Virus record (IMG/VR): IMGVR_UViG_3300020020_000139
Span: 1 to 27,274 of that record
Length of the DNA stretch: 27,274 nt
Source of the DNA: a virus
Reading direction: 5' to 3' (one strand)
The notes under the pieces are model-generated. The model was not told the DNA's origin, did no database searches, and worked only from the letters and a program-made list of their open reading frames with translations. Below, piece after piece: positions 17,906-27,274 of this stretch. The translations under genes and the position numbers were made by a program. Positions within the stretch are counted from its first letter, which is position 1; each line of letters begins with the position of its first letter.

Positions 17906-18748
17906 TTAAACTCCTAATACGGGTGTAGTTGACCATGCTTCAAAATAGCTGATTGGCGAATAGACATGAGTACCTGCTGGAAGTACAACTCCCATTAGAG
18001 TTCCGGTAAGTGCCTGAGCTGCGGCGTTCAAAGTCCAGTCATCAAGCTTAACCCCATTGAGGAAAACCTGAGCTGTAGTCCCTGAAAGTCGAAGCCCGAA
18101 AGCGTTACCAGTTGCAGGTGTAGTTGTTGGAATCGTGATATCCCGCTCCGTTGCAGGCGTACCAGCGACGTTCCTAGTTACACGTAGGTTAGTAGCAGCC
18201 TGACGTGAAAGTCCAATCCAGTTATTAGCGTCAGTAACACGAGCTACATGCTGGGTAACAGTAGTTACATCAGCATCAGACATTGTTAGCCACTGAGCAA
18301 AGATATCATTACTTCTACCAGTTCCTAGGTTAACAGAAACTAGACCAGCAGCAGAACTCATTGCACCTAGAGGACCTCGTGAAAGGTCACCAGGAGAAGC
18401 AATAGCCTTACCGGTTGAATCTAGGATAACTCCTGTAGCCCTACGAATCGACATAGGTACATCAGAACTCTCATAGGACTGACCACCACCAGGATGGAAA
18501 GCCGCTAGAAGTCGTGGATTCCTAGTAGAAGGAGCTTGGAACCGTGAGGTGTACACATTACGATGTGCGAATAGAATATCATTCTGGGTTGGCTCCCACT
18601 CAAGTGTAGCGTTAGCTAGACCAGCCCTACGATTCTTAGCAAACCGACGGTAAGGTGGAGAAAGAAGGTTCTCATACTGGAAGGGATTAGTGAAACCAGG
18701 GGTACCTGGCTCATTAAACCCTTCATCAGTTCCGTATGTCATTGTCAC
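17906..18748 (-). CDS. Lectin/LamG-like virion surface protein
   Basis: A 280-residue protein. GTG 18748 overlaps the portal stop (GTGA) and has GGAGG 9 nt upstream; an ATG at 18742 is the alternative. The first ~100 residues are Pro/Arg-rich. From ~105 on the strands read like a concanavalin/LamG domain: DIFAQWLTMSDADVTTVTQH, RVTDANNWIGLSRQ, FGLRLSGTTAQVFLNGVKLD, PISYFEAWST. Such domains bind sugars or decorate heads and fibres. Finding it between portal and scaffold suggests a head-surface component. The domain call is by pattern only. Confidence 0.68.
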   Translation of the reverse strand: MTMTYGTDEGFNEPGTPGFTNPFQYENLLSPPYRRFAKNRRAGLANATLEWEPTQNDILFAHRNVYTSRFQAPSTRNPRLLAAFHPGGGQSYESSDVPMSIRRATGVILDSTGKAIASPGDLSRGPLGAMSSAAGLVSVNLGTGRSNDIFAQWLTMSDADVTTVTQHVARVTDANNWIGLSRQAATNLRVTRNVAGTPATERDITIPTTTPATGNAFGLRLSGTTAQVFLNGVKLDDWTLNAAAQALTGTLMGVVLPAGTHVYSPISYFEAWSTTPVLGV

Positions 18749-20850
18749 TGCGGTGGACCTCCACTAGATGCAGTATTCGACTGTGGAGCTGGTGCTGCTC
18801 CCATTCCTCCTGATTGTAGGCTAATAATGAATCCTCGTAAAGCTTCCTCCACCATGTCAGGCACATAATACTGAGCCATTTCAGCCATCTCTGGGTTCAT
18901 CATCATCATTTGAGGTGGAATCTGCGGGGTCATTACCTCAGATGGAATGCTAGCTACTAATTCAGGAGCTAGTTGCTTAGCAAGTAAGAACATATCCTTG
19001 AACACATGATGACGGAAGATCATCTTAGGCTGATCCTCTAAAGCCTCATATTCCTCCCGCTTTCTGTAGTTGTCGTGTACCTGGATATGAACTAGCAAGT
19101 TCTGCCAGTCATTAGTATCCTGAGGTTCTCCCTGAGCCATATGCAGATTCTGACGCTCAGCTTCCCGAACATCAACCTGCATTTCCTCGAAGACTCTAGC
19201 AGTGTCTCCCATATCAAGGAACTGTAGTCCCTTATCAGCTGGGAGAATGCCCATCTTCATTAGCTCCATTAGGAGAGCTTGCTTAGCAGCCCTACTTTGC
19301 GGAGTTGCAGATCCAGCAACTACATGCCAGTCAGTGTTTCCACGGAGATTAGTAGCAGACAGTAGATAGGTCTCGAAGTTCTGATCCTGACCTACAACCT
19401 TAATCTGCCGCTCAGCATCCCAAAATTGAACCACGTAACCTAGAAGATGACGACAGATTCTCTGATAAGCTCGCTCCTTATCTCGAAGACACTCAGAAAG
19501 AACTTCATCCTGATTCTCCTGTAGATAAGAGATAGCAGTTGCTGCCGTTACTCCAGAGGGGATACCCTGTTCTAGCTGTCGCTGCTCTGCTAGATCACTC
19601 ATTTCTTCCTGTAGATGCTGTAAGTGTTCTACAACATAATTAGGAATGTTGGGCATTTGAATAGGAGCAGGCGGTGGAGTTCCTGGCTTATACATGATCA
19701 TTTCACCAGGTCGACCTTGAACAGCGTTGGCATTAATAGAACCTTGCTGAACTGCCATCATAGGTCGAGCCATCCGGTTCTTGTCCTCAATGATCTGAGA
19801 ACGAGTCCGATTGTACTCCATCTGTAAAGGACGAAGGTCTACAATGATTGACTCACCATAGAATCGACCAGTCTCTAGGAATTGACGACGAGTGAAAGGA
19901 TATTCCTTATGAGCATAAGGCCACTCAGGATAATACCCTAGTACAATGTCATTGCACCAAGTTAGCACCATTCCTTCTGGGTACTCAGTGCAAGGCTTAG
20001 CCCACAGCTCAAATACTTCAATACCCTTCTTAGAGGTATTAGACTTGTAGCCTTGAGCTGCCTGTAGCTTGGCCTCAATAGAGGAACCAGCCAGCTTAGC
20101 ATCCTCACCTGGATCTACCTGATACTGATCCATAATCTGACTACGAGTTCTAACAGCGACGTGACAGATCCAATCCTGTAGATCAATATCTGGCTCATCA
20201 ATGTTAGATACGAAGATGTGGAACGGAGAAATAGTCTCTACGACTGGAGCACCCATCATCGTTGATGGACGCTTTTCACCTGTCATAGGGTCTTCTTCTT
20301 CTGGTCCTGCCATCTTGATGCTCTCGTTATAGTAATCCTTCGAGAACCCAGTACCGCAGGTCAGCATCCACCAGTCAGTTCGATTAAGCCGCTCTTGCAA
20401 CTTAGTCAAATCAATAAGGTAAGTATTGAGCCGCTCACCAGCCCGAGCAGCAGCAATATCGCTATCGTCAGTTGTAGAAGGCGCAATAAAGCCCCTAATT
20501 TGCTCCTTGCAGAGCTTCGCATATTGCTTATTCACCAACTTCCGAACACGGTTCACAGTAATGCGAACACGGTGGGGAGGCACCTTCGGTTCAATCATTG
20601 AACCTAGATGGGTAGAAGAAGCAGCTGCATCCCACATGAGCCATTGCCGTCCGAACATGAAGGCAATGTTTTGATACCACTCTCTTTCAAACGGAACCCT
20701 CGCCATCTTAGCAGCGTTTACTTCCGTCTTCCATTTCTGAATCAGATGTTCAGGATTTGGGGGTAAAATCCGGCCTTCGCCGGCAATTCCTACAGCTTCC
20801 CTTGTGGGATTAGCTTGTCCACCTGGAGCTTCAGTGTTCGTTACGCTCAC
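18745..20850 (-). CDS. Portal protein
   Basis: I chose GTG 20850 (GGGAG 7 nt upstream); a TTG at 20877 is in frame but lacks a site. The ~701-residue product shows portal features: the N-terminal EWYQNIAFMFGRQWLMWD, the clip/wing HRVRITVNRVRKLVNKQYAK, the FHIFVSNIDEPDIDLQDW region, the long stem-like helix QIPNIPNYVVEHLQHLQEEM with LEQGIPSGVTAATAISYLQE, and a helical crown. The C-terminus is Met/Pro-rich (PPQMMMMNPEM). Length and gene order (terminase, portal, scaffold, capsid) agree. It forms the 12-subunit ring through which DNA is packaged and ejected. Confidence 0.92.
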   Translation of the reverse strand: MSVTNTEAPGGQANPTREAVGIAGEGRILPPNPEHLIQKWKTEVNAAKMARVPFEREWYQNIAFMFGRQWLMWDAAASSTHLGSMIEPKVPPHRVRITVNRVRKLVNKQYAKLCKEQIRGFIAPSTTDDSDIAAARAGERLNTYLIDLTKLQERLNRTDWWMLTCGTGFSKDYYNESIKMAGPEEEDPMTGEKRPSTMMGAPVVETISPFHIFVSNIDEPDIDLQDWICHVAVRTRSQIMDQYQVDPGEDAKLAGSSIEAKLQAAQGYKSNTSKKGIEVFELWAKPCTEYPEGMVLTWCNDIVLGYYPEWPYAHKEYPFTRRQFLETGRFYGESIIVDLRPLQMEYNRTRSQIIEDKNRMARPMMAVQQGSINANAVQGRPGEMIMYKPGTPPPAPIQMPNIPNYVVEHLQHLQEEMSDLAEQRQLEQGIPSGVTAATAISYLQENQDEVLSECLRDKERAYQRICRHLLGYVVQFWDAERQIKVVGQDQNFETYLLSATNLRGNTDWHVVAGSATPQSRAAKQALLMELMKMGILPADKGLQFLDMGDTARVFEEMQVDVREAERQNLHMAQGEPQDTNDWQNLLVHIQVHDNYRKREEYEALEDQPKMIFRHHVFKDMFLLAKQLAPELVASIPSEVMTPQIPPQMMMMNPEMAEMAQYYVPDMVEEALRGFIISLQSGGMGAAPAPQSNTASSGGPPQ

Positions 20851-21193
20851 TCTCGTACTCCCTCGCAATCTCGTCAATCATGAAGTCGGGCGTTAGATCA
20901 AACAGCACAGCTTCCGGGTCGGAGTTAGAGTCCTCGTCTTCATACCCGGGGGTTATAATCGTTTGATCGGGGAGAGGAACGTTGTAGTATTGTACCTGGT
21001 TTAGATCAGCCAAAGTCCGGGAGGTCAGCCGATCCATTGCGTCCCTTGCTAGCTGGGTGTGACTTTCTAGCGCGTCCTTCTGACTCCTTAGAATCAGGCT
21101 CGTCAACTTCGTCTGCTGGTGCTGAAAGTAGAGCAGTAGCAAGCTCGACAGCAGCACTATGAGCACCAGTAATGAGATTACGAAAACGAGCAT
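20831..21193 (-). CDS. Single-helix membrane protein overlapping two neighbours
   Basis: A 120-residue protein with a strong N-terminal transmembrane helix (VISLLVLIVLLSSLLLLYF, about 5-23). A helical soluble part with Gln/His/Arg follows, and the C-terminus is acidic (TPGYEDEDSNSDPEAVLFD to EYESERNEH). ATG 21193 has a very good ribosome site (GAGGAAGAGA). The first 188 nt overlap the end of the upstream gene in another frame, and the last 20 nt overlap the portal start. The topology resembles spanin-type or membrane-anchored phage proteins, but the role is unknown. Confidence 0.65.
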   Translation of the reverse strand: MLVFVISLLVLIVLLSSLLLLYFQHQQTKLTSLILRSQKDALESHTQLARDAMDRLTSRTLADLNQVQYYNVPLPDQTIITPGYEDEDSNSDPEAVLFDLTPDFMIDEIAREYESERNEH

Positions 21194-22316: not shown

Positions 22317-23777
22317 TCACCAATCCTCACCTAGTATGAAATGTGACCCGTTACTTTCTGCCATCTCGTAGTCACTTTCCCTGACCACATCACTAACTTG
22401 GGGAGGGGCGGCGAATGGAAGGTACAGGTTACCAGCAGGGCCTTTAAACTCTTCCTCGGGCCTACTACAGATCAGGTACCTTTCAGCGTCTAAGGCGTGG
22501 TCCCTTACTTTTCTCGGCTTGTCCTTTGACTCCTTCGTTTCTTCGTTCTTCCTAGTTGCCCAGGTATCCCATCGGTAGTTTCGCTTCTCCTTGATGAGGT
22601 TGGTGCAAATGTTGGCGATGAAGAGCCCTGAGTTTTGGATGTAGGTGCGGACTCGATTAAGTCCGTAATTAACGTCGTTGTTTCCTGTTCCGATGTAGAT
22701 ACCGTGGTCTGCGTACTCACTTTGTACAGAGCCACCCGTGATAGCAGAGCGCTGGGCAATAGCCGGGTCACCGACTCTATAGCTCGGTTCGATCCCATTA
22801 GCCTTCTCGAACTCCTTAATTACATCGCAATGTTCCTTGATGGTTCTCTCAGCTTGATAGTACTCATGGAAAATCGTGACCCGACCTTCATGATCTACAA
22901 TTGCCCATAGCCAAGCTGTAGGATTTCTAAGTCCGTGGTCCATTCCACAGATCACTGTGTGATGCTTCAACTCTGAGAGGTTTAAGGGAGGGACGGTGTG
23001 GACTGTCTCATGGAATTCAGGATAGATCAATCCTGTAGCCGCCATGAATTGACCATGACGCCGTGCCATTCTCTCGGCTTCACTGAGTCCTCTAGTCATT
23101 TCCTCTAGGATTGCCTGGGAAATGTACGGGTTCTCTACAGTACTGATCTGGAACACATCTACATTGAGGTTATCTTCTTCCTCAACTACAGGCCTGTAGT
23201 AACCGTAATAGATCCAAGTCATTCCCTGAACAGGCGTCATTGTTAGACACCACTTACCACCCGTATCTACGAGGCGAAGCAAATCTTCGTTGAAGACATA
23301 CTGAGGAGGTTCCTCGTCGAACCACTGCCAATGACGACTTGTACCGGCATGTTTGTCCACGTCCATTTCATAGGTGAGGAAGTCCATCGTGGACCCATTG
23401 CGAAGAGTAAGAACTCTTCCTTGCTTGTCATATGAATCTTCCCAACTTCCATTTATTAAGTCGGACGGTGGAATCCATCGAGCGATTTCCGGGAGCATGA
23501 TCTTTTTAATTCCCTGCTCAATATCAACCGCAGAACCTCTCGCTCTGATAGGAGCTTCTGGGACTCGCTGATAGGGATGGTTGCCCCGCAAACGGTACAC
23601 GGTTTCAACAGCGCCGGCAACAGTCTTTCCTGCTCGGTTACCACCGAGGAAAATCCTTCCTGTTGCTTCTGACTCATGGAATTTCTCCTGTAGCTCGTGT
23701 GGCTTGTAACCGAAAACGTTCGGTCGCTTAGCTGAGTCCCTAATTCCGCTGAGGAAGCTCTCTTTTAAGTCGCTCAC
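22317..23777 (-). CDS. Terminase large subunit
   Basis: A 486-residue packaging motor. ATPase domain: Walker A GGNRAGKT (45-52), Walker B WQWFDEEPP (151-158), and the coupling segment LTMTP (178-182). Nuclease domain: Asp280 (GMDHG), Asp337 (VGDPA) and Asp430 (DHALDAERY), the usual three-acid RNase H-like set that cuts concatemers. GTG 23777 overlaps the small subunit stop (GTGA), as expected for a stoichiometric motor. It pumps DNA through the portal. Confidence 0.96.
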   Translation of the reverse strand: MSDLKESFLSGIRDSAKRPNVFGYKPHELQEKFHESEATGRIFLGGNRAGKTVAGAVETVYRLRGNHPYQRVPEAPIRARGSAVDIEQGIKKIMLPEIARWIPPSDLINGSWEDSYDKQGRVLTLRNGSTMDFLTYEMDVDKHAGTSRHWQWFDEEPPQYVFNEDLLRLVDTGGKWCLTMTPVQGMTWIYYGYYRPVVEEEDNLNVDVFQISTVENPYISQAILEEMTRGLSEAERMARRHGQFMAATGLIYPEFHETVHTVPPLNLSELKHHTVICGMDHGLRNPTAWLWAIVDHEGRVTIFHEYYQAERTIKEHCDVIKEFEKANGIEPSYRVGDPAIAQRSAITGGSVQSEYADHGIYIGTGNNDVNYGLNRVRTYIQNSGLFIANICTNLIKEKRNYRWDTWATRKNEETKESKDKPRKVRDHALDAERYLICSRPEEEFKGPAGNLYLPFAAPPQVSDVVRESDYEMAESNGSHFILGEDW

Positions 23778-24526
23778 CCGAACTCCGCTAGCAAGTCAGA
23801 ACCTTCTTCAGAGCTTGAGGGCAGGTCTAGAACTTTCCTAGAAGGTTTGGTTCTGGCTGGGAGGCGGGCTGGTTCTGGAAGCTGGGGGAACAAGACTTCT
23901 TCTAGTTCTCCATGGATCAACTCTAGAGTTTCTGGTGGTACGTGACGCTGGAGAACCTCTAGTAACTTCTGAGTCAGTTCCCTGACTTCGCCCGTTAGGT
24001 GAGTGACTTGAGTCTTAGAGGTTGGGCTGTACTCACCAGTTAGCTCGAAGTAAAACTTAATTGCGTTGACGTTCCGACTTACTGCTGCCTCTTGAGCTAA
24101 GGCGTTTAGAACTAAAGTTCGAGAGTCGTTGAACTTCTTGTCTGTTTCCCCTCGAACGAGCTGTACGAAGGTAGTGTCCCTCATCCAGCTAGCGAACTCA
24201 GCCTGACTCACTTTCGCTAGCGAAAGCTTCTTAGAGAGAGGCAGAATGTTGGTCGGGTCCGTGAAGTCCCGAATGAAGTCTAGCTGCTTAGGCGTGAGAA
24301 CTGGAGCTGGCTTGTAGGGGTTAGGAACCCCTCTTTCCTCGAAGTACTTAACTAAACTTTCGCGAGTTAAGCAGTCTTCCCAGTCTTCCTTAGTGAACTT
24401 AGTCTTGAATTCGGAGTTAAGGTTAGCGGGCGAGTCTGGTGCGAAGCCGAAGTTCCAGTAGTACGCCTCGTAACACGCCACGAACTCTTGACGGGTAGCC
24501 GAGGAAGTGGTAGAGGTAGTTGTCAC
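23774..24526 (-). CDS. Terminase small subunit
   Basis: A 250-residue protein. A helix-turn-helix-like segment, LTPKQLDFIRDFTDPTNILP with KVSQAEFASWMRDTTFVQLV, matches the DNA-binding part of phBC6A51-type small terminases. A helical middle (SRTLVLNALAQEAAVSRNVN, IKFYFELTGEYSP) suits ring formation, and the acidic tail (PSSSEEGSDLLAEFG) would contact the large subunit. GTG 24526 has AGGA 8 nt upstream and overlaps the HTH gene's stop. It recognises phage DNA for packaging. Confidence 0.82.
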   Translation of the reverse strand: MTTTSTTSSATRQEFVACYEAYYWNFGFAPDSPANLNSEFKTKFTKEDWEDCLTRESLVKYFEERGVPNPYKPAPVLTPKQLDFIRDFTDPTNILPLSKKLSLAKVSQAEFASWMRDTTFVQLVRGETDKKFNDSRTLVLNALAQEAAVSRNVNAIKFYFELTGEYSPTSKTQVTHLTGEVRELTQKLLEVLQRHVPPETLELIHGELEEVLFPQLPEPARLPARTKPSRKVLDLPSSSEEGSDLLAEFG

Positions 24527-25098
24527 GAGGTTAATCCTGTTAGTTGCGTTTCTGTTAGTTCTCCGCTAATGAAGAGTCGCCCGTAGAAGGAGGGTGGGCA
24601 GTTAACTTGACGCAGCGCTTCTGTCACGTTACTTGGTAACCGCCGCCTTCTAAGCTTCGTTTCCTTCGCGAACCGGAACACTTCTGCGGGAGTCACACAA
24701 ATTAAACTAGCGAATTGAAACGGAGTCACCTCAAGAAAATCTAGTAACTCGTCGAAACTCTCCAAATTAGCCCAATTTCTCGGGTCAAAATTTAACCCCC
24801 TACAGCCCTTGATGGAACAGGTGTAAGTAGAATCAGGGTGAGCGTGGAAGTAATAGAGTCTTTTAGCTGTTTTGAATTGTTGGTAGGCTAGTGCTTGGGC
24901 CGGAGTTAGAAGGGGTCGGTAAGGAAGGGGAGGGTAAGCAAAGCAACCTTGCTCTGCAAACTGAACGGTTGTCTTGGAAAGTTTAAGCTGGACGGCTAGT
25001 TCGGCTTGGCTCAAGTTGCGCAGTGTCCGTAGGGTTGTGAGCGGGTTTGGGGGGAGAAAGTCCTGGTCAGAAGGGGTGTGAGTGTCGTTTCGTGTCAT
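24523..25098 (-). CDS. Tandem helix-turn-helix DNA-binding protein heading the virion operon
   Basis: I chose ATG 25098, preceded by GAGGA at 8 nt; an upstream ATG at 25161 would add a low-complexity stretch. The 191-residue protein has a Cro/CI-type HTH near its start (LTTLRTLRNLSQAELAVQLK, LSKTTVQFAEQG) and a second similar unit near the end (DELLDFLEVTPFQFASLICV, TPAEVFRFAKETK). A pair of Cys (CSIKGC) lies between. It is the first gene of the packaging/virion operon and stands beside a control region with paired dyads, so it may regulate that region, or take part in terminase DNA recognition. Confidence 0.75.
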   Translation of the reverse strand: MTRNDTHTPSDQDFLPPNPLTTLRTLRNLSQAELAVQLKLSKTTVQFAEQGCFAYPPLPYRPLLTPAQALAYQQFKTAKRLYYFHAHPDSTYTCSIKGCRGLNFDPRNWANLESFDELLDFLEVTPFQFASLICVTPAEVFRFAKETKLRRRRLPSNVTEALRQVNCPPSFYGRLFISGELTETQLTGLTS

Positions 25099-25250
25099 TC
25101 TGCTAGTCCTCTTATATAGGGGGGAGTGGAGGGGGTGGGATACTGCGGGATGAGAGGGCATAGCGCTGCCCCGGTGTGTCCCCTAGTCTGGCTTCTAAGG
25201 GTGGGCTAGTCAAACTGGGAAGAAAAAGATCCTAGGAAAGCTAGAGAGGG

Positions 25251-25279
25251 AAAATTTCTGGAATTTGAAAAATTTCTGG
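25251..25279. repeat. 11-bp direct repeat pair
   Basis: AAAATTTCTGG occurs at 25251-25261 and again at 25269-25279, 18 bp apart, inside an AT-rich stretch of the control region. The role is unknown. Confidence 0.7.
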
Positions 25280-25298
25280 CAGTAAAGGATTGTACTCC

Positions 25299-25341
25299 CT
25301 AACGCCGTTAGAAAACTCCGATCAATATCTAACACCGTTAG
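25299..25341. promoter_or_regulatory. Paired palindromic operator-like sites
   Basis: CTAACGCCGTTAG (25299-25311) and CTAACACCGTTAG (25329-25341) share 12 of 13 bases. Each has CTAAC and GTTAG half-sites around a 3-base centre. Their centres are 30 bp apart, close to three helical turns, so proteins bound at both would face the same side. A further GTTAG half-site follows at 25351-25355. The HTH protein encoded just to the left is an obvious candidate binder. Confidence 0.75.
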
Positions 25342-25412
25342 TTTATCAGTGTTAGCTAGTTAAGCCTGCCTGACACTCCATATTGGAATGCGTGAATTCA
25401 GTAAATAAGGTC

Positions 25413-25444
25413 AGCTTACTAAGCCAAATAGCGCAAGCTTACTA
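25413..25444. repeat. 9-bp direct repeat pair
   Basis: AGCTTACTA occurs at 25413-25421 and 25436-25444, 23 bp apart, within the control region. Such a short pair could be chance, but it adds to other repeats here. Confidence 0.5.
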
Positions 25445-25470
25445 CACCATGCTACCCTCCCTTAACAAAG

Positions 25471-25480
25471 CAAGCGCTTG
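25471..25480. promoter_or_regulatory. Perfect 10-bp palindrome, operator-like
   Basis: CAAGCGCTTG is a perfect dyad about 30 bp before the first promoter -10 (25512). It could bind a regulator of the right operon. No protein can be named. Confidence 0.5.
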
Positions 25481-25481
25481 G

Positions 25482-25515
25482 TTGCATGATATACGCTCCA
25501 TTCTTGCATGATATA
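25482..25515. repeat. 12-bp direct repeat pair
   Basis: TTGCATGATATA occurs at 25482-25493 and 25504-25515, period 22 bp, near two helical turns. The second copy forms part of an extended -10 promoter element, so the repeat may be both regulatory site and promoter. Confidence 0.7.
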
Positions 25516-25517
25516 AT
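25509..25517 (+). promoter_or_regulatory. Extended -10 promoter, right operon (P1)
   Basis: TGATATAAT (TG at 25509, TATAAT at 25512-25517) is a consensus extended -10 element. No good -35 is seen at the expected place (ATATAC). It lies upstream of the stronger promoter at 25543-25570 and reads toward the same operon. Confidence 0.6.
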
Positions 25518-25542
25518 TCTCTAGATTTCTTTCCCAGGGCTA

Positions 25543-25570
25543 TTGACCTTTCAGCTCGAATCCCTATAAT
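25543..25570 (+). promoter_or_regulatory. Sigma70-type promoter, right operon (P2)
   Basis: TTGACC (25543-25548) and TATAAT (25565-25570) are 16 bp apart, close to the consensus for primary sigma factors. Transcription would start near 25577 and give a leader of about 59 nt with a stem-loop before the first ATG at 25636. It probably works with host RNA polymerase at the start of infection. Confidence 0.85.
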
Positions 25571-25592
25571 GGACCTTGCAAGGCAGTGAGGC

Positions 25593-25607
25593 CCCGGAAA
25601 GTCCGGG
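25593..25607 (+). promoter_or_regulatory. Leader stem-loop 1
   Basis: CCCGGA (25593-25598) pairs with TCCGGG (25602-25607) around AAG. It lies in the leader of the first right-operon gene, about 28 nt before its start. There is no T-run, so it is not a classical terminator. A similar stem-loop stands before the next gene and at the window's end. Confidence 0.6.
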
Positions 25608-25635
25608 AGGGTTCCAACTCAGAAACGAGGAAACA

Positions 25636-25758
25636 ATGAGTGACGACGCTAAGGCCGATGCCTACGACGACGCTGTCCGTGATTTGATCGAAAGATTCAA
25701 CTCCTCAGAGCTGACTCTCGACGAATACATGGACGAACTAGATAACCTTGAATCCTAA
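25636..25758 (+). CDS. Small acidic protein, first gene of right operon (40 aa)
   Basis: I chose ATG 25636, which has GAGG 6 nt upstream in the context ACGAGGAAACA; longer frames back to 25576 run through the leader hairpin. The 40-residue product is strongly acidic and helical (DDAKADAYDDAVRDLIERF, LTLDEYMDELDNLES). Small acidic proteins at the start of early phage operons can mimic DNA or bind host proteins, but none is recognised here. It follows the best promoter of the window. Confidence 0.8.
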   Translation: MSDDAKADAYDDAVRDLIERFNSSELTLDEYMDELDNLES

Positions 25759-25818
25759 GCGGTTCAGTTCTGGGGAGCAGTCTCTGACTGTTGCCTTGAG
25801 CCTAACGGCTAACAAGTC

Positions 25819-25833
25819 CCGGGAAACTCCCGG
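25819..25833 (+). promoter_or_regulatory. Leader stem-loop 2
   Basis: CCGGGA (25819-25824) pairs with TCCCGG (25828-25833) around AAC, 30 nt before the ATG at 25864. The sequence after it, CCCAGAAACGGGGAAATAACAATG, runs parallel to that before the first gene (CTCAGAAACGAGG, AAACAATG). The two leaders thus look like copies of one element. Confidence 0.6.
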
Positions 25834-25863
25834 TAGCGTCAACCCAGAAACGGGGAAATAACA

Positions 25864-26649
25864 ATGGACATGAAGTCTCTTCTTCTGCCTGTTCTGCTTG
25901 CGGAGCATGAGAAGTACACGGCCATGTACCTGTCGCAGGTGAGTGATGACCTTCCCGGAAAGCGGGAGTGGTTGAAGTCGCTCGAAGGTTCTGCTGCTGA
26001 GTACGACACAACCGAGTACTTCGCACCGATCCGGGATGCTGCGGGTGGTACAGAGGATCCGGCTGAAATCCTGGCTCTTCTGAACGGCTTGGTTGAAGTT
26101 CAGAAGAACCTCAAGGAGTGGTTGTCTGGAATGTTCGCAGCGATGAACAACAACGCTTCGAATAAGACGGACGGCGTCTCTACTCCCGAGGAGATTCAGG
26201 GTCAGCTCAAGATGGTCCGAGATGCCTTCGATGCCTGCCTCTCAATGGTTCGATTGAACCAGATGACCGAAGCGGATATCAAGGAAGCTCTGACCTTCAC
26301 CTCTGAGAATGAGGACGATCCGGAAGTCCGATGGGAGATGAGGAACACCCGGGGTAATCCGGTGTTCACTTATAAGCCTGTCGGAACTGTCAAGGTTCGG
26401 ACTGTCACAACGAACGCAGTCGGTCCCAAGTCCAACAGCAAGCGCTACCGGTTGGTAGTCGATGGTGAGCTGAGCCCAGAAGTTCAGTTCGGTGAAGCTT
26501 GCCGTAAGGCTGGGATCGAGGGTTCGGTCCTTCAGGCTGCGGTTGTGGAAGGCCTCGGTAAGGATGCCTGGACGAACGAAGCCAAGTATTCCGACAACAT
26601 GGTGACAATCAACGGTCACACCTACGGACTGCGGATGAGTAAGTCCTAG
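25864..26649 (+). CDS. Unrecognised 261-aa early protein with distinct base use
   Basis: A mostly helical, acidic protein with an N-terminal region (LLLPVLLAEHEKYTAMYLSQ) and a predicted helical middle (PAEILALLNGLVEVQKNLKE; MVRDAFDACLSMVRLNQMTE). The C-terminal module (SKRYRLVVDGELSPEVQFGE, then AVVEGLGKDAWTNEAKYSDN and TINGHTYGLRM) looks like a folded beta-alpha domain. No known motif was recognised. Codons here favour C or G in the third position and the CTGTAG/CTACAG hexamer common in the left part is absent, so this gene may have a different origin. Leader stem-loop 2 precedes it and a long hairpin follows. Confidence 0.8.
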   Translation: MDMKSLLLPVLLAEHEKYTAMYLSQVSDDLPGKREWLKSLEGSAAEYDTTEYFAPIRDAAGGTEDPAEILALLNGLVEVQKNLKEWLSGMFAAMNNNASNKTDGVSTPEEIQGQLKMVRDAFDACLSMVRLNQMTEADIKEALTFTSENEDDPEVRWEMRNTRGNPVFTYKPVGTVKVRTVTTNAVGPKSNSKRYRLVVDGELSPEVQFGEACRKAGIEGSVLQAAVVEGLGKDAWTNEAKYSDNMVTINGHTYGLRMSKS

Positions 26650-26661
26650 CAAGTGGAGTGG

Positions 26662-26692
26662 AGTACACACTGGTGATACATCAGTGTGTACT
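26662..26692 (+). promoter_or_regulatory. Long leader hairpin before the 53-aa gene
   Basis: AGTACACACTG (26662-26672) pairs perfectly with CAGTGTGTACT (26682-26692), an 11-bp stem with a 9-base loop. It lies in the 67-base gap between two right-operon genes, about 24 nt before ATG 26717. It lacks a following T-run, so processing, attenuation or translation control is more likely than termination. Confidence 0.6.
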
Positions 26693-26716
26693 ACTCCCTA
26701 CTTGAAAGGTGAAACA

Positions 26717-26878
26717 ATGAATGGGGCAATCAAGGTAGATCGGATTCTGGTTGCTTATGACAGACTGGAACTGATTGAGAAGTTGAACGTGCGAGACTAC
26801 TTAGTCGATAACGGAAAGACGGTAATAGTTCATTATTACCCGCATGACACGTTTCACAACTCGCAAAGGTGGGTGTAG
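26717..26878 (+). CDS. Small hypothetical protein (53 aa)
   Basis: I chose ATG 26717, which has AAGGTG about 6 nt upstream in the recurrent context GAAACAATG. The product (MNGAIKVDRILVAYDRLELI, EKLNVRDYLVDNGKTVIVHY) is a mixed alpha/beta protein ending in HNSQRWV. No family was recognised. It lies after the long leader hairpin and is followed by a gene starting 4 nt after its stop. Confidence 0.75.
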   Translation: MNGAIKVDRILVAYDRLELIEKLNVRDYLVDNGKTVIVHYYPHDTFHNSQRWV

Positions 26879-26882
26879 ACAA

Positions 26883-27071
26883 GTGACACTAGCTAATACC
26901 CGTATGTGGTGGAACGATCGAGATGGTTATGTGACAGTAAACGTAATCATGGGAGGAGTGGAAGACGAAACAGACGGACATTTCCTTCTACAGATGCCTG
27001 ATGGCTCTCTCAGGGTTGCCTTCGGAAACACTCTAGAAGGCTGGTTCTGGTCAAAGTCAGTCAACTACTGA
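26883..27071 (+). CDS. Small hypothetical protein (62 aa)
   Basis: GTG 26883 lies 4 nt after the previous stop with AAAGGTGGG about 9 nt upstream. The 62-residue product is beta-rich and aromatic (TRMWWNDRDGYVTVNVIMGG, FLLQMPDGSLRVAFG, LEGWFWSKSVNY). No family was recognised. The base use is closer to the left part of the window than that of the 261-residue gene. Confidence 0.75.
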   Translation: MTLANTRMWWNDRDGYVTVNVIMGGVEDETDGHFLLQMPDGSLRVAFGNTLEGWFWSKSVNY

Positions 27072-27081
27072 AAGGATGAAC

Positions 27082-27249
27082 ATGACACTGGAAGAGTTCG
27101 GACAGTGGGTAGTCGACAACAGTTGTAAGAGTCGAGTCTCAGAAGACGGTATTGAATACGGCGAACTAGATTTCTGTTGCTTCGATATGGAATACAGCTA
27201 TAGCAGAGCAACCGGACAAGTCGAAATCGTGAGAGTAGGAGAAAAGTGA
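27082..27249 (+). CDS. Small hypothetical acidic protein (55 aa)
   Basis: ATG 27082 has AAAGGA about 6 nt upstream. The 55-residue frame begins MTLEEFGQWVVDNSCKS, is acidic, contains a CC pair (ELDFCCFDMEYSYS) and ends VEIVRVGEK. No family was recognised. It is followed by a leader-type stem-loop at the window's end, so another gene of the operon probably lies beyond. Confidence 0.75.
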   Translation: MTLEEFGQWVVDNSCKSRVSEDGIEYGELDFCCFDMEYSYSRATGQVEIVRVGEK

Positions 27250-27257
27250 GAAACCTC

Positions 27258-27274
27258 CCCGGACAAGTTCTGGG
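27258..27274 (+). promoter_or_regulatory. Leader stem-loop 3, at window edge
   Basis: CCCGGA (27258-27263) pairs with TCTGGG (27269-27274), with one G-U pair, matching leader stem-loops 1 and 2. The gene it would precede is outside the window. Confidence 0.5.

Follow-up and report, generated by a model that had tools for sequence, protein, structure and literature searches.

The DNA analyzed here, referred to as the window, is a whole IMG/VR entry of 27,274 bases. The record is classed as linear, and the window is therefore probably a fragment of a larger genome. Sequence comparison places this uncultured, actinobacteriophage-like podovirus among the relatives of podoviruses of actinobacteria. 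The window encodes a family-A DNA polymerase (651 to 2417, + strand), and its virion genes, including those for the portal (18745 to 20877) and the terminase (22317 to 23777), lie on the − strand. The terminase is 41.5% identical to that of the uncultured podovirus MW202795 and 33 to 39% identical to those of Arthrobacter phages (Jasmine and Adat among them), Microbacterium phage Shocker, and Cellulosimicrobium phage DS1. Comparison of the portal leads to the same relatives, and the nearest relatives in IMG/VR share 53 to 54% terminase identity. Since the genomes of the named phage relatives are 42 to 46 kb long, about 15 to 19 kb, mostly of the early arm, would be absent from the record.

A rightward operon of small genes begins at 25636 and runs to the window end. 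Searches of PHROG, Pfam, PADLOC, and the relatives detected no homologues of its proteins. Upstream, a consensus scan identified a promoter-like site, TTGACC-16-TATAAT, at 25543 to 25570 (+ strand; 11 of 12 matches), where we infer that the early promoter likely lies. Transcription would begin near 25577, and the first leader hairpin would begin about 15 to 20 nt into the transcript. Just upstream of this site, the exact direct repeat TTGCATGATATA occurs at 25482 to 25493 and at 25504 to 25515, 22 bp apart, a pair of matches reached by 0 shuffles; the second copy continues into TGATATAAT, which is extended −10 like. The divergent intergenic region at 25299 to 25358 contains CTAACNCCGTTAG twice, 30 bp apart, with TGTTAGCTAGTTA close by, and these are possible operator sites.

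The operon features are all on the + strand. The first leader, M1 (25593 to 25638), consists of a hairpin (25593 to 25607), a linker, and an element that bears the Shine-Dalgarno (SD) sequence (CAACUCAGAAACGAGG, AAACAATG). Behind it lies the first early gene (25636 to 25758), an open reading frame with an SD that encodes a small acidic protein of 40 amino acids with no significant family match. The second leader, M2 (25819 to 25866), likewise contains a hairpin (25819 to 25833), a linker, and the element CAACCCAGAAACGGGG, AAATAACAATG, and precedes the gene for a 261-amino-acid early protein (25864 to 26649), an orphan in PHROG, Pfam, and PADLOC and among the relatives. A long imperfect hairpin at 26650 to 26709, with about 24 bp and staggered 2-nt bulges, is located 5′ of the gene at 26717 to 26878, which encodes a 53-amino-acid orphan protein and has the SD AAAGGUG. 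The window closes with CCCGGA-CAAGU-UCUGGG (27258 to 27274), a weak, possible third leader copy that ends at the contig edge. The first-pass annotation had described stem-loops ahead of the genes at 25636, 25864, and 26717 and a common ACAATG at their starts. Both observations are correct: the stem-loops lie 24 to 30 nt before the ATGs, and all three starts read ACAATG. The genes at 26883 and 27082, with little or no preceding gap, are without a comparable hairpin. The consensus scan found no promoter-like site 5′ of M2, no intrinsic terminator (a GC-rich hairpin followed by a U run) occurs in 24500 to 27274, and no Rfam family matched the window at its curated threshold.

M1 and M2 are copies of one leader

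M1 and M2 share a layout of about 46 nt, comprising a 6-bp hairpin, a linker, CAACYC-AGAAACGRGG-AAA, and the start codon. The hairpin reads CCCGGA-AAG-UCCGGG in M1 (−8.8 kcal/mol) and CCGGGA-AAC-UCCCGG in M2. The similarity score of the two gaps is 39, compared with 14.2 ± 2.2 for shuffled sequences, and was reached by 0 of 1,000 shuffles. Hairpin and linker without the SD are also similar between the copies (P = 0.008). Flank identity is 35 to 40% upstream and 10 to 24% past the ATG, against a background with a mean of 25% and a 95th percentile of 40%. The copied unit therefore runs, with sharp limits, from hairpin to start codon and is joined to unrelated genes on both occasions. These data identify M1 and M2, by sequence, as true copies of one leader before two neighboring early genes. 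In strength, the short hairpins alone are marginal, barely exceeding shuffled sequence (P = 0.04 to 0.07 for M1; P = 0.06 to 0.16 for M2). Thus, the recurrent module of the first-pass annotation stands as a duplicated leader and falls as a module of four copies, since the hairpin before 26717 is unrelated and the window-end stem-loop marginal.

The G-rich site noted after each stem-loop is present in the visible leaders as the SD, and it is an ordinary or extended SD and no new element. AGAAACGAGG in M1 agrees at 9 of 10 bases with AGAAAGGAGG, which is complementary to the anti-SD of actinobacteria. Among the relatives, AGAAAnGR occurs before 16% of open reading frame starts, compared with 9% for rotated motifs, an enrichment that would be expected of an extended SD. 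AGAAA loops had been considered as protein-binding loops, and this idea was rejected because AGAAA belongs to the extended SD.

With M1 and M2 in register, four paired positions differ, and together they account for two whole base pairs. One, in the main stem, is C-G in M1 and G-C in M2; the other, in a 3-bp mini-stem in which the SD core forms the 3′ arm, is U-A in M1 and C-G in M2. Pairing holds in all 18 cells of the alignment of the two copies, and when partners were slid by 1 to 3 columns, zero double changes were obtained. The alignment behind this analysis (A5) leaves out one linker base of M1 and three bases of M2; MAFFT on the untrimmed copies places the stem one base away, which leaves a slight ambiguity in how it aligns. 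Column shuffles equaled the observed counts of compensated pairs in 122 of 500 cases. Since only two copies are certain, both compensated pairs rest on a single comparison. That both substituted pairs are compensated is suggestive of RNA structure in the leader and is not proof of it. The A-to-G change in M2 weakens the computed pairing with the 16S tail from −9.7 to −8.8 kcal/mol (for an actinobacterial tail), and yet its partner base has changed with it, a mild argument in favor of a role for the mini-stem. Overall, the two-copy leader is real, and the RNA-level constraint on it is only a hint.

Other hairpins in the operon and in relatives

Among the stem-loops of the operon, only the long hairpin at 26650 to 26709 is clearly nonrandom (minimum free energy [MFE], −35.7; z, −6.3; P ≤ 0.003 against shuffles). 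It lacks the CCCGGA core. Under stricter scoring it shows no similarity to M1 and M2 (P = 0.60 and 0.86, respectively), and looser scoring gave P values of 0.05 and 0.67. The long hairpin is different in kind from the leader hairpins. With about 24 pairs, staggered bulges, and no U tail, it is a candidate for processing of the RNase III type; RNase III requires double-stranded RNA of about 20 bp or more, a length that the imperfect stem of about 24 bp provides. The first-pass annotation also saw a matching stem-loop closing the window. Its 17 visible nucleotides (27258 to 27274) have a hairpin strength of P = 0.09 and a similarity of P = 0.03 to 0.07 to M1 and P = 0.04 to 0.31 to M2, and its SD and start would lie past the contig end. 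The match is not convincing, and a third leader copy at this site is doubtful.

A covariance model built from M1 and M2 (R2) found only these two leaders in the window, the third-best place (E = 0.27) being the leader with the long hairpin. Across about 1.3 Mb from the loci of 98 relatives, the next-best match had an E value of 1.7, and 38 whole relative contigs yielded zero matches. Recurrence of the module beyond the operon is therefore not supported at the level that R2 can detect; because R2 rests on two sequences, divergent members would be missed. Exact patterns searched against IMG/VR gave one chance match each, in L003 and, within an open reading frame, in L090, and no genuine one, and the window-end pattern gave zero matches. 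A descriptor of a hairpin plus an SD mini-hairpin with a GAAA loop matched 7 of 46,006 leaders, compared with 1.9 expected; M1, M2, and the leader of a 272-amino-acid early gene in L004 were among the seven. This excess is suggestive but weak, being post hoc, as L004 was inspected before the descriptor was written. The L004 leader was rejected as a homologue of M1 and M2, ranking 986 of 16,441, and is not homologous at the sequence level. In Shocker, the idea that the SD generally sits within a mini-hairpin was likewise rejected (9 observed versus 10.6 expected), and complementary SD flanks are not enriched genome-wide.

Strong local hairpins, defined as 70-nt segments with an MFE of ≤−26 and a z of <−3.5, number 157 in 364 kb upstream of the terminase in the relatives, compared with 112 in 380 kb downstream. 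Many of them lie in gaps of the small-gene arm, some at 7 to 55 nt before a start, and their sequences are unrelated. L004 has one 5′ of the 272-amino-acid gene and another 5′ of the next gene, L080 has one 5′ of the small gene that comes after its 270-amino-acid gene, and DS1 has several in early-arm gaps. Some of the relatives' strong hairpins carry U-rich tails and are terminator-like. Hairpins in the gaps of early operons are thus a habit common to the relatives, and their sequence is not. The recurrence of sequence-unrelated hairpins in these gaps suggests that this podovirus group generally cuts or terminates its transcripts between the small early genes.

Several further observations were made in the relatives. 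The early arms of L029, L019, L009, and L016 contain clusters of very strong hairpins within 1 to 3 kb, with z values down to −11 in L019. Shocker (L008) has a start-linked repeat, AGAGATTGGAGACTCT and variants, directly 5′ of several ATGs (sites at 31205, 38684, 43739, 41798, 902, and 2716), and TACCCTA, which is −10 like, is repeated just upstream of many of its starts. In DS1 (L009), 32386 is the annotated start of one gene, for which the in-frame ATG at 32416, preceded by AAGAAAGAGGAACC and a small hairpin, is a better start. Early genes of 260 to 320 amino acids lie near the divergent region in the window (25864 to 26649), L004 (935 to 1753), L010 (47 to 1006), L080 (3954 to 4763), and L017 (726 to 1505). 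Homology is detectable in some pairs only (L004/L010), and the gene in the window is an orphan; these genes may form one fast-evolving family.

Possible roles of the leader

We read M1 and M2 as a translation-initiation leader used twice, for the first two early genes, in which the hairpin acts by insulation, and we assign this reading a probability of about 0.45. In each leader, a small GC-rich hairpin would stand 12 to 13 nt upstream of the extended SD AGAAAnGRGG, which is close to AGAAAGGAGG. The hairpin would fold on its own and stop upstream RNA from pairing with the ribosome-binding site; it may also slow decay from the 5′ side. The weak 3-bp mini-hairpin, whose 3′ arm contains the SD, may fine-tune initiation. 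Each gene would as a result be translated efficiently and independently of its neighbor. The leader would be read by the host, and a phage RNA-binding protein would not be required. The long hairpin at 26650 to 26709 would serve separately, most likely in RNase III-type processing or in partial termination between one cistron and the next. When the M1 stem was forbidden in folding, the predicted accessibility of the SD core fell from about 0.97 to about 0.4. For M2, folding predicts an SD that the mini-stem keeps mostly closed, with or without the main stem, and the insulation effect is therefore seen for M1 only. From these predictions, we infer insulation or stabilization for the main hairpin and possible tuning for the mini-stem. 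Since M2 has no promoter-like site, the module would act there on an internal cistron.

A possible, if doubtful, alternative is that a leader with a strong ribosome-binding site was copied by recombination and that only the extended SD is selected, the hairpins being incidental. The marginal strength of the short hairpins against shuffles, the SD element as the best-conserved stretch, and the absence of the module from every relative searched all fit this account. It is harder to reconcile with the conservation of the hairpin part alone (P = 0.008) and with the compensation of the sole paired difference in the hairpin.

It is unlikely that the leaders form a posttranscriptional regulon, a reading that the first-pass annotation had raised. 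In such a regulon, the hairpin, with the mini-hairpin over the SD, would be the operator through which an RNA-binding protein of the phage or of the host switches several early genes together. The module is discrete and was copied 5′ of unrelated genes, the SD is partly closed in M2, and paired changes are present, as such an operator might have them. There are only two copies, however, with loops that differ (AAG versus AAC); the relatives have zero copies, and the window yielded no candidate RNA-binding protein. A dedicated RNA-binding protein for the leader is not supported, the evidence pointing neither way. An extended form of this idea, that the structured RNA (hairpin plus SD mini-hairpin) stands before many early genes, mostly in the absent 15 to 19 kb, and is bound by one factor to make a translational early regulon, is improbable. 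If an RNA regulon were nevertheless the true reading, the start-associated sequences that lack an explanation in other actinobacteriophages could likewise be RNA elements.

Inverted repeats with a 3-nt spacer could also be DNA-level operators or stoperator-like sites for a phage repressor, and the ESAS of cluster K phages, with their promoters and inverted repeats, have been read as DNA sites (PMC11373665, PMC3203893). A weak HTH protein is encoded at 24523 to 25161. We nonetheless regard a DNA operator as distinctly improbable, because the differences between the M1 and M2 half-sites are symmetrical, so that the shared half-site is lost and RNA pairing is kept, and because M2 is far from any promoter-like site; in addition, the downstream SD element lies inside the conserved unit.

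Least probable of all is that every hairpin is an RNase III-type site and that cutting at these sites, as in T7-like phages, turns the early transcript into mRNAs of one gene each. The long hairpin (z, −6.3) and similar long hairpins 5′ of early genes in L004, L080, L006, and L009 would suit such cutting, but usual RNase III substrates have stems far longer than the 6 bp of M1 and M2, and processing would be of little use at M1, which stands at the very beginning of the transcript.

Comparison with known start-linked repeats

In T7-like phages, RNase III sites are found between early genes. The hairpin at 26650 to 26709 resembles these sites as a long imperfect hairpin in the gap before an early gene, with putative cleavage, whereas the M1 and M2 hairpins are too short and their sequence is unrelated.

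Start-linked repeats are better known from actinobacteriophages. Cluster K mycobacteriophages carry a 13-bp start-associated sequence (SAS) at gene starts, about half of these sites with an upstream inverted repeat (PMC3203893), and the ESAS repeats contain putative promoters (PMC11373665). M1 and M2 are similar in that a repeat is located at the ribosome-binding site of nonstructural, unrelated genes with an inverted repeat just upstream, as in about half of the cluster K sites. They differ in sequence and in number, with 11 to 19 copies in cluster K and two in the window, although most of the early arm lies outside the contig. Moreover, the changes between M1 and M2 favor RNA pairing, which the variation of the cluster K repeats does not support (PMC3203893). 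The cluster K SAS, GGGATAGGAGCCC within 3 to 9 bp of starts, is absent from the window; a single + strand match with two mismatches, at 24318, lies inside genes on the opposite strand, with a chance expectation of 0.66. ESAS repeats carry −35/−10 promoter hexamers; a promoter-like site occurs upstream of M1 only, with none at M2.

Microbacterium phage clusters EF, EG, EC, and EI each have start-linked repeats of their own (PMC7302621). In cluster EF, a conserved SD-centered motif, GGGAAAGGACCCC, is tied to a conserved upstream stretch, as in M1 and M2; unlike these, it has ten copies, and its upstream part is centered on GTAGAG and is not a hairpin (PMC7302621). GGGAAAGGACCCC is absent from starts in the window with up to two mismatches allowed. 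The 18-bp inverted repeats of cluster EG, 14 to 22 bp before starts, and the 18-bp motifs of cluster EC resemble M1 and M2 in lying in small gaps, 14 to 30 bp before starts and upstream of the ribosome-binding site (PMC7302621). In contrast to M1 and M2, EG and EC have 8 to 12 copies with the SD outside the repeat, and the EG sequence is fixed as GATCAACCNNGGTTGATC, which is absent from the window as a start-linked repeat (a single three-mismatch match, at 19018, is inside the portal gene).

The first-pass suggestion that the module may be undescribed thus holds for its sequence and not for its kind, since start-linked repeats, including inverted repeats upstream of ribosome-binding sites, are known (PMC3203893, PMC7302621). 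By sequence, M1 and M2 belong to none of the sets compared here (the motifs of clusters K, EF, and EG); in place and manner they are like the known actinobacteriophage repeats, of which they are a private new example. Their novelty is modest, and they are unusual only by the hint of pairing at the RNA level. Repeats associated with gene starts have been on record since 2011 for several clusters of actinobacteriophages, with no role assigned to them. M1 and M2 are a small instance whose between-copy changes favor RNA pairing, which provides a testable handle on such repeats.
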